The position numbers and the translations under genes are program-made. From Bradyrhizobium sp. CB3481 (GTDB lineage: Bacteria > Pseudomonadota > Alphaproteobacteria > Rhizobiales > Xanthobacteraceae), in contig NZ_CP121647.1 in NCBI RefSeq assembly GCF_029714305.1, forward strand, positions 7,336,501-7,400,500: a stretch of DNA of 64,000 nt, given 5' to 3'. Position 1 is the first letter of the stretch. Each line of letters starts with the position of its first letter. The notes under the pieces were generated by a model. It had not been told where the DNA came from, did not search any database, and saw only the letters and a list, made by a program, of their open reading frames with translations. Shown piece after piece: positions 52,517 to 59,467 of the stretch.

Positions 52517-54232
<1,716 letters not shown>

Positions 54233-54291: not shown

Positions 54292-54355
54292 ATACCCGCT
54301 CCCCAACCCTCCCCCGCAAGTGGGGAGGGAGCCTTGGCAGCGTGCTCACCCCACA
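54292..54355. repeat. Left direct repeat of the DUF559 cassette
   Basis: GGCATACCC, CTCCCCAACCCTCCCCCG, CAAGTGGGGAGGGAGCC and AGCGTGCTCACC follow each other in the same order and orientation as at 54813-54876, where the GGCAT is the complement of the DUF559 start codon. Each copy contains an internal palindrome (CCCTCCCC...GGGGAGGG). Confidence 0.85.
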
Positions 54356-54360
54356 TTGGC

Positions 54361-54816
54361 TCACGGATGCTCCTCGGTATCTTTGGCACCAGTCAGGGAC
54401 GCATCGGCGGTAGGGTTCCCTCTCCCCTTGCGGGAGAGGGTTAGGGAGAAGGGTACCGCTTGCTCCGCTGCTTCGAGAATGGAAAGAACAACACCTTCGA
54501 GATTTTTCATCACGTCGTCATTGGTGAAGCGGAGCACGCGATAGCCGCGGGAGGCGAACCATTCGTCGCGCTTGGCGTCGTGTCGAATGCGCTCCTCAAA
54601 ATCGTGACTCTCGCCATCGACTTCAATGACGAGCTTGCAAGAGTGAGCAGCGAAATCCGCGATGTAATTGCCCGTCGGGACTTGGCGGCGAAATCCCAGC
54701 CCCGCGAGCCGTTTCGCTTTTAGATGGCGCCATAGCAACGTCTCCGCGCGCGTCATCTCGCGCCTCAGCCGCTTGGCGCGATCTCGCTGAATCTTGCTGA
54801 CTTCGTCGTGTGGCAT
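54361..54816 (-). CDS. DUF559 domain protein (Vsr/PD-(D/E)XK-like endonuclease fold)
   Basis: 151 aa from ATG 54816; its GGAGAGGGG ribosome site is part of the flanking repeat. The nuclease core reads MTRAETLLWRHLKAKRLAGL, GFRRQVPTGNYIADFAAHSC, KLVIEVDGESHDFEERIRHD and GYRVLRFTNDDVMKNLEGVV: the IADF...VIEVDG pair fits the D-ExK active site of Vsr-like nucleases. The last 30 residues (SLTLSRKGRG...) are encoded by another palindromic repeat unit. It interrupts the otherwise conserved ureB-ureC junction; its target is unknown. Confidence 0.85.
   Translation of the reverse strand: MPHDEVSKIQRDRAKRLRREMTRAETLLWRHLKAKRLAGLGFRRQVPTGNYIADFAAHSCKLVIEVDGESHDFEERIRHDAKRDEWFASRGYRVLRFTNDDVMKNLEGVVLSILEAAEQAVPFSLTLSRKGRGNPTADASLTGAKDTEEHP
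54411..54456. repeat. Palindromic repeat unit inside the DUF559 3' coding end
   Basis: CCCTCTCCCCTTGCGGGAG followed by AGGGTTAGGGAGAAGGG, a unit of the CCTCTCCCCGC family, translated as part of the nuclease C-terminus. Confidence 0.75.
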
Positions 54817-54880
54817 ACCCCTCTCCCCAACCCTCCCCCGCAAGGGGGGAGGGAGCCCTCCCAGCGTGCTCACCTCACTG
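54813..54880. repeat. Right direct repeat of the DUF559 cassette
   Basis: Same order as the left repeat (GGCATACCC, CTCCCCAACCCTCCCCCG, CAAGGGGGGAGGGAGCCC, AGCGTGCTCACC). It includes the DUF559 start codon and ribosome site. Confidence 0.85.
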
Positions 54881-54903
54881 CGGATCACTGTGCATTCCCT
54901 GGA

Positions 54904-55209
54904 TTACAGCTTGCCCTGCACGTCGCCGCGGAAGCCGTAGACAACGCGCTTGCCCGCGAGTGCGACGAGTTGCACATCGCGGGTCTGGCCGGGCTCGAAG
55001 CGAACGGCCGTGCCGGCGGCGATGTCAAGGCGCATGCCGCGGGCCTTTTTGCGATCGAATTTCAGGGCGGGGTTGGTTTCGAAGAAATGATAGTGCGAGC
55101 CCACTTGAATGGGGCGGTCGCCGGTGTTGGCGACCGTGAGCGTCACGGTCTTGCGGCCGGCATTGAGCTCGATCTCGCCGTCCTTGATGAAGAGTTCGCC
55201 GGGGATCAT
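54904..55209 (-). CDS. ureB: Urease beta subunit
   Basis: 101 aa from ATG 55209 with GAGG 8 nt upstream; the frame further up to 55362 is the translated repeat. Family text: [34 protein letters not shown], and [21 protein letters not shown] separate ureA and ureB are the usual bacterial arrangement. Confidence 0.97.
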
Positions 55210-55236
55210 GTCTGGTACCTCGCATTGCTCTGCTCC

Positions 55237-55322
55237 GTCATGGCCGGGCTTGGCCCGGCCATCCACGTCTTTGTGGCTCAGAAAAGAAAGACGTGGATGC
55301 CCGGGACAAGCCCGGGCACGAC
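55237..55322. repeat. Palindromic repeat between ureA and ureB (GTCATGGCCGGGCTT family)
   Basis: GTCATGGCCGGGCTTGGCCC...CATCCACGTCTTT is mirrored by AAAGACGTGGATGCCCGGG...GGGCACGAC. It sits in the 136-nt ureA-ureB gap. Confidence 0.9.
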
Positions 55323-55345
55323 GGTGTTGACGGTTCGTGTGCGCT

Positions 55346-59345: not shown

Positions 59346-59467
59346 CACCTCTCCCGCTTGCGGGGAGGTCGACGCGCAAAGCGCGGCGGGTGGGGTGCCT
59401 CCCCACGCGAGGCCGTCGCCCGCGGAGAGACCCCCACCCCAGCCCTCCCCCGCAAGCGGGAGAGGGA
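59346..59467. repeat. Palindromic repeat between urtB and urtC (CCTCTCCC family)
   Basis: CACCTCTCCCGCTTGCGGGG on the left; AGCCCTCCCCCGCAAGCGGG plus AGAGGG on the right, with inner GGTGGGGTGCC/CCCCCACCCC. It fills most of the 173-nt urtC-urtB gap. Confidence 0.85.

Follow-up and report, generated by a model that had tools for sequence, protein, structure and literature searches.

A DUF559 nuclease-like gene within an inverted pair of palindromes between ureB and ureC of Bradyrhizobium sp. CB3481: a probable REPtron-like unit

REP palindromes are common in bacteria, and the enzymes so far assigned to them in the literature cited here are HUH tyrosine transposases (RAYTs) only. In the REPtron (RAYT/TnpA-REP), as the available parts of PMC3733652 and PMC8266576 describe it, the gene is bordered by palindromes, gene-less copies are dispersed, mostly as inverted dimers, and the types are cognate. 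The available part of PMC3733652, a REP survey of 2013, leaves one REP superfamily without a dedicated enzyme; it describes CGTC-tagged REPs as short palindromes, mostly inverted dimers, that are common in alphaproteobacteria and have no dedicated transposase, and it places Rickettsia palindromic elements and other intragenic REPs in frame inside genes, often repair genes. VsrA of Caulobacter (CCNA_02930), itself a DUF559 protein, is SOS-linked and has been proposed to be a mismatch-repair enzyme (PMC12907096, available part), and no word starting with "palindrom" occurs in the main text of that paper. The terms DUF, endonuclease, RAYT, Vsr and transposase are all absent from the available part of a 2025 REP survey (PMC12306157). 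A literature search, with most subscription journals and preprints outside its range, yielded no paper in which DUF559 is connected with palindromic repeats.

The window, by which we mean the whole stretch of 64,000 nucleotides that was analysed, belongs to a genome of 8.04 Mb in a single contig; most of its near relatives in the public collection are Bradyrhizobium. A 151-codon DUF559 gene lies in it between ureB and ureC, with the following features.

52517..54232, minus strand: ureC, host gene downstream of the DUF559 gene, open frame
54292..54364, minus strand: outer palindrome copy [<-]2, hairpin 54307-54329, direct repeat of the upstream copy
54361..54816, minus strand: DUF559 gene, 151 aa, with a predicted EDxHD/Vsr-type PD-(D/E)XK nuclease domain (residues ~10-122) and a palindrome-encoded, low-confidence tail (123-151)
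54409..54455, plus strand: downstream palindrome [->], inverted repeat (87% complementary), hairpin 54418-54440, encodes the protein C-terminus
54817..54864, minus strand: upstream palindrome [<-], hairpin 54831-54853 outside, G-rich tail inside with a Shine-Dalgarno-like run, abuts the ATG
54904..55209, minus strand: ureB, host gene upstream of the DUF559 gene, open frame
59436..59466, plus strand: further dispersed palindrome of the P subtype, as found on both sides of the second DUF559 gene in the genome

The gene product belongs to the Pfam family PF04480/DUF559 (E 8.4e-37; 125.8 bits against a curated cut-off of 20.6), and its other Pfam match, to MTES_1575 alone, fell below the cut-off of that profile. 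The reading frames of ureC and ureB are open on both sides, in agreement with the preliminary description, which had seen a DUF559 nuclease-like gene in an intact host operon. The two same-orientation repeats that it had named, each with a palindrome, were recovered as a direct repeat of 70 nt (54295-54364 and 54819-54888, 86% identical, spacing 524), with limits a few bases off those first given. It was also right that the right copy supplies the ribosome site and the start, since the ATG (54816-54814, minus strand) immediately follows the G-rich tail of the upstream copy (GGGGAGAGGGGT-ATG), and that a third palindrome encodes the C-terminus of the protein; this tail is encoded by the inverted [->] copy (PFSLTLSRKGRGNP), which is 87% complementary to 54816-54862 over 47 nt. 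With three or fewer mismatches, a 21-nt palindrome consensus had 4 matches in the window, whereas in 100 dinucleotide shuffles the mean count was 0.03 and the maximum 1.

In the orientation of the gene, the order is [<-1] gene [->] spacer [<-2], and the hairpins lie outside and the G-rich tails inside around the gene. The recurring unit is the inverted pair around the gene ([<-]gene[->]), and the direct repeats are one of its arms and an extra outer copy. The first view of the locus as a cassette with its own palindromic ends is supported, but the direct-repeat boundary is secondary. The direct repeat was rejected as the mobile unit, because the inverted pair is what recurs, with or without the outer copy. 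Also rejected, as a general feature, was a conserved T:G mismatch within the hairpin that could serve as a target for Vsr, since the copies in the window are perfect stems (by eye). PADLOC (defence systems) gave weak matches only, the best at E 0.0036. Between ureA and ureB, a CGTC-like REP dimer at 55236-55324 has a CGTC tag, a 9-bp stem starting with AT, a 5-nt loop and a CCA tail, followed by an inverted partner, and it fits by eye the CGTC REP description in the available part of PMC3733652.

A profile search found DUF559 at four places in the genome, with five matches. The second gene, between pheS and pheT, had the same layout with a slightly different palindrome and an outer copy. The third was frameshifted, with a third kind of palindrome on both sides (score 14.5, shuffle maximum 12.5). 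All three stand-alone genes were bracketed, each by its own palindrome type. The fourth match (L003, 3070285-3070581) was a domain fused behind a methyltransferase, which from its translation we take to be probably TrmJ-like, and bracketing palindromes were absent there. DUF559 matches near E 1e-16 to 1e-17 were the best match in several Bradyrhizobium genomes and may be fusions of this kind.

The palindrome core, with one mismatch at most, occurred 69 times in the genome, some of these being chance matches, and the reversed pattern twice. The 39 further palindrome stretches were classed by their tails into the U type (the palindrome around the ureBC DUF559 gene) and the P type (around the pheST gene). 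In an exclusive count that placed 11 core matches outside both types, the U type was present in 10 stretches (19 copies), the P type in 25 (25 copies) and both in none. Seven stretches had at least two U copies, and six of them were gene-less inverted dimers with the hairpins outside and the tails inside, as around the gene; the seventh (L134) was arranged the opposite way. One of 40 palindrome clusters fell into the 2.8-Mb stretch at 3.46-6.26 Mb (binomial p 8e-7, with 54 of the 69 core matches kept by eye and the interval chosen after inspection), which could be the terminus region or accessory DNA.

The P copies were paired with a related palindrome that bears an additional small hairpin, and both are part of a conserved repeat of ~220 bp whose ends are inverted. 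Such a MITE-like repeat could be moved by another transposase, which weighs against the REPtron-like reading given below and favours an alternative in which the palindromes are ordinary REPs that owe their movement to a RAYT or some other transposase, DUF559 being a passenger tolerant of insertion nearby. The genome does have three Y1_Tnp genes, one of them RAYT-like (L315, 2702922-2703257; weak match, E 1.6e-5). However, this gene was bracketed by a GTAG palindrome of different sequence (score 31), and the scanned palindrome patterns had no match beside any of the three, the one match in the L315 stretch being more than 1 kb off. Nor does a passenger predict a palindrome type that tracks the DUF559 clade, or a fixed orientation and spacing, and we hold this alternative to be improbable. 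L315 and its GTAG palindromes are apparently an independent REPtron in the same genome; a tentative guess for the palindrome is GTAG-14 of PMC3733652. Given these GTAG palindromes and the CGTC-like dimer between ureA and ureB, three palindrome systems coexist in the genome, and only the CCCTC-type goes with DUF559 here.

The preliminary description had suggested a search for empty sites, and empty and solo-palindrome spacers were found in relatives, at pheS-pheT as well as at ureB-ureC. Among the loci of the 30 best UreB matches of 98 genomes, 28 were measurable and two had no ureC match. The cassette was present in 10 of the 28, one palindrome match in 4 (two beside another ORF), an interrupted palindrome, seen by eye, in 1 (L104), and none in 13. 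The shortest clear empty spacer was 27 nt (L110), two loci with a computed spacing of 0 being distrusted. At the 30 best PheT loci, 2 of which were not measurable, the P cassette was present in 8, another DUF559 (50% identical) with another palindrome in 1, and DUF559 without the upstream palindrome in 2. In 5 of the 30, the spacer measured 88-151 nt and held a solo palindrome (three by eye). There was one palindrome match in a longer spacer in 2, a 79-nt spacer without a palindrome in 1, and a spacer of ~400 nt without a palindrome match in 9, with an unrelated ORF in the two that were inspected. By eye, some relatives have an HD-domain-like ORF between ureB and ureC, and some an ASCH-like ORF between pheS and pheT (L130, L118, L176, L199). 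The unrelated ORFs suggest that both spacers are insertion-tolerant. Palindromes interrupted by another small hairpin, of the GAGCGAAGCTC or GTCCGCC...GGCGGAC types, were seen in L174, L179, L181, L184, L104 and L200 and may be nested insertions.

Gene-less dimers were polymorphic too. At the site of the L155 dimer, 12 of 30 relative loci were aligned; the dimer was missing in 10 (8-23 nt left) and present in 1, and 1 was not anchorable. Compared with DDE-type insertion sequences and MITEs, the repeats have clear inverted ends, and a TAGCGCG repeat at the L155 site could, by eye, be a target duplication or belong to the end of the element. At L136 (2629700-2630700), a U-type dimer lies in frame within a gene that, from its reading frame, we take to be ImuB-like, and adds ~72 residues. 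In seven aligned loci, this site held 11 nt in two, 37-40 nt without a palindrome in three, a P-type dimer (170 nt) in one and a single P palindrome (130 nt) in one, and the frame was open through all four inserts translated.

The solo palindromes bear on the main rival of the reading that we prefer. It holds that DUF559 is a homing-type nuclease which cuts a solo, pre-existing palindrome, so that the cassette is copied in with a palindrome on each side, as a parasite of repeats spread otherwise. By eye, the solo palindromes have flanks fitting the outer copies of the cassette: the one at pheS-pheT (L181) has on its left side the left flank of one outer copy and on its right side the right flank of another, and the one at ureB-ureC (L106) agrees with the outer copy in its right flank and with either in its left. 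The second nearest fold of the protein is moreover a homing endonuclease. Recombination between direct copies, however, predicts solo palindromes equally, and L181 fits a pre-insertion site or a recombination product alike, as expected of either. The protein has no DNA-binding domain beyond its core, and the site would not be protected, since both flanking palindromes are intact. The homing account is thus a serious possibility but, in our judgement, the less probable one.

Whether the same repeats flank other DUF559 genes had also been raised in the preliminary description. The bracketing score was that of the best inverted repeat between the 350-nt flanks of each DUF559 domain, and the controls were points at least 400 nt away in the same loci. 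The DUF559 loci were drawn from the best-scoring matches first rather than at random. A score of at least 18 was reached in 28/32, 32/32 and 30/40 Bradyrhizobium-type loci, the last set being chosen by hand from listed matches and without controls of its own. The resulting total was 90/104, in which loci are not independent (L035/L019, L048/L021 and L044/L022 are the same places twice) and a few records are labelled Frankia, Hyphomicrobiales or Xanthobacteraceae. The same score was reached in 16/29 loci of other Pseudomonadota and 8/15 plasmid-collection loci, Deinococcus and cyanobacteria included (together 24/44), and in 1/209 controls, 3/209 of which reached 15. An earlier version of the test gave 40/57 loci and 1/114 controls; it scored 57 of the 63 loci L001-L034 and L069-L097, leaving out L005, L009, L014, L028, L029 and L070 as incomplete or duplicate. 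In most Bradyrhizobium loci, the layout was [<-]DUF559[->] with fixed spacing.

Outside Pseudomonadota, all four Deinococcus loci examined scored 20.5 to 57; two of five cyanobacterial loci scored 36.5 and 63 and a third 17, and a Geobacillus locus scored 9. Scores below 15 at 13/29 other Pseudomonadota and 6/15 plasmid-collection loci indicate that some DUF559 genes are without repeats or that the test misses repeats. Indeed, Neisseria L201 and cyanobacterial L205 and L210 scored below 15, yet had palindromes on both sides by eye; they were excluded from the positives. In some loci beyond Pseudomonadota the tails pointed outward (by eye), and hence the gene-inside-dimer and the gene-between-palindromes arrangements both exist. 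In Deinococcus plasmids (L098, L207, L208), DUF559 with palindromes lay between three different neighbour pairs in an hpa gene cluster. L065 (2600-3850) and L062 had tandem arrays of the dimer unit with core spacings alternating between 152 and ~140 nt; in the L065 array, one unit bears the DUF559 gene, and the others have the same ends and unrelated filler.

The association was also seen at the level of genomes. In 398 Pseudomonadota genomes, with the hairpin defined as CCCTCTCCC-N2..14-GGGAGAGGG and DUF559 counted as present at E<=1e-10, three or more hairpins were found in 72/110 genomes with DUF559 and in 15/288 without it (odds ratio 34, p 7e-36), and the mean hairpin counts were 31.9 and 2.0. 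By genus, the counts were 44/66 and 7/146 (p 1e-21). Four of the 15 DUF559-less genomes with three or more hairpins had weaker DUF559 matches. Zero hairpins were found in 22 of the 110 DUF559 genomes, at least one of which (G291, the genome of L081) bears another palindrome type.

In the genus set, 105 loci fell into 15 sites and 11 protein clades; the site count left out L003, L004 and L068 and joined sites by any flank similarity, so that 15 may be too few. One clade occupied four sites with one palindrome (ACCCTCCCCTGGAGGGG...), and another occupied two sites with one palindrome. The pheST site held two clades with two palindromes. For one member at a second site (L245), the score indicated no palindrome. 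For pairs at different sites, palindrome similarity was 0.88 at a protein identity of at least 65% (8 pairs) and 0.45 below 50% (90 pairs; permutation p 0.016, rho 0.25). When other loci were added, the values were 0.79 (15 pairs) and 0.39 (621 pairs; p 0.013, rho 0.16). Units scoring below 15 had been dropped from this comparison, which kept 26 of 45 non-Bradyrhizobium loci, and L246-L244 and L090-L094 were exceptions. The palindrome type tends to follow the DUF559 clade, a correlation that is real but modest.

These distributions leave little room for the view that the palindromes are non-mobile and serve as regulatory hairpins (terminators, attenuators) for a DUF559 repair gene inherited vertically. 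The ribosome site is carried by the palindrome, and many of the fetched Bradyrhizobium copies are at two conserved sites, as that view would have it. It is contradicted by the gene-less copies dispersed far from DUF559, the presence/absence polymorphism, the 15 sites among 105 loci, the three neighbour pairs in the hpa cluster of Deinococcus plasmids and the in-frame copies in the ImuB-like gene, and we consider it extremely unlikely.

The folds nearest to the predicted one were 3hrl (DUF559), the homing endonuclease I-Bth0305I (3r3p) and Vsr (1cw0, 1vsr). By this prediction, the DUF559 protein of the window has the fold of EDxHD homing endonucleases and Vsr, as its first description as a Vsr-like nuclease would suggest. 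The Vsr fold, together with the Caulobacter VsrA data in the available part of PMC12907096, could speak for a Vsr-like mismatch-repair nuclease whose repeats are coincidental hot spots. The bracketing of 90/104 Bradyrhizobium-type loci, against 1/209 controls overall, is hard to reconcile with coincidence and makes this very unlikely.

We consider the feature likely to be a selfish unit of the REPtron-like kind, in which a Vsr-fold nuclease takes the place of the RAYT inside an inverted hairpin pair, with gene-less REPIN-like dimers dispersed. The compact mobile cassette of the preliminary description, comparable to REP-associated transposases but with another enzyme, is supported by the empty and solo sites and by the inverted palindromes at most of the DUF559 loci examined. 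The partnership of the predicted nuclease with the palindrome is cognate, dispersed and polymorphic, and the reading is built on how the unit is organised and dispersed, on the empty sites, on its recurrence at DUF559 genes, on the match between palindrome and protein and on the predicted nuclease fold. From these we infer palindrome cleavage, repair-based spread and expression, as follows. The target recognised by the nuclease is most likely its own palindrome in hairpin form, either extruded or folded, and the enzyme would cut or nick beside it. To our knowledge, PD-(D/E)XK nucleases lack an intrinsic strand-transfer activity, so insertion would have to borrow host repair. Repair of the break, by recombination with, or insertion of, another copy or a released dimer, would spread dimers and occasionally the gene-bearing version along with them. 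Since the ribosome site lies in the palindrome tail and the coding sequence ends in the far palindrome, gene and repeats would travel together. Operon spacers would tolerate the unit, probably thanks to read-through transcription.

A broader proposal, toward which we lean only slightly, is that DUF559 is the missing dedicated enzyme of a third REP superfamily, with a CCCTC-type hairpin and a G-rich tail, in Pseudomonadota, Deinococcota and Cyanobacteriota at least; its mobility would be transposase-free, the nuclease cutting its own hairpin and host repair doing the rest. Should DUF559 serve its own palindromes, a role would be assigned to a widespread family whose function is unknown or assumed to be repair, and palindromes would have a second, mechanistically different and testable route of spread. 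The annotation "very-short-patch-repair endonuclease" of DUF559 proteins may then often name selfish nucleases.

Compared with known systems, the DUF559 proteins and palindromes share some traits with each and coincide with none of them. Caulobacter VsrA is a DUF559 protein like the product of the window gene, but it is read as a mismatch-repair enzyme in the available part of PMC12907096; Vsr (1cw0, 1vsr) differs in that DUF559 here goes with palindromes and dispersed repeats. I-Bth0305I (3r3p) shares the predicted EDxHD catalytic domain fold. Its setting is different, since the DUF559 gene is, judging from the ORFs, free-standing between ureB and ureC rather than resident in a self-splicing intron or intein, has no extra DNA-binding region and lies within palindromes. 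Rickettsia palindromic elements are in frame like the L136 copy in the ImuB-like gene, but the palindrome families differ (PMC3733652, available part). CGTC REPs, as described in the same part of PMC3733652, are likewise short, mostly inverted dimers in alphaproteobacteria, but by eye the DUF559 palindromes have no CGTC tag, no stem that begins with AT and no CCA tail. The CCCTC-type palindromes might overlap with a family of PMC3733652, and the RIME elements of Rhizobium might belong with them.

The REPtron is the closest. As in the available parts of PMC3733652 and PMC8266576, bordering palindromes, dispersed gene-less copies that are mostly inverted dimers, cognate types, and intergenic and occasionally in-frame intragenic copies are found in the DUF559 system, whose bordering palindromes are themselves the dispersed ones. 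The REPtron enzyme is an HUH tyrosine transposase, whereas a predicted PD-(D/E)XK/EDxHD nuclease, and no HUH/Y1 enzyme, lies between the palindromes here. The REPtron has GTAG at the stem, whereas the DUF559 palindromes are CCCTC-type with a G-rich tail and, by eye, no conserved GTAG beside the stem; in some U-type copies, CTAC stands at the stem-distal end of the tail. Identity with a GTAG/RAYT REPtron was therefore rejected, for want of an HUH enzyme and of GTAG at the stem, and because the palindrome of the RAYT-like gene L315 differs.
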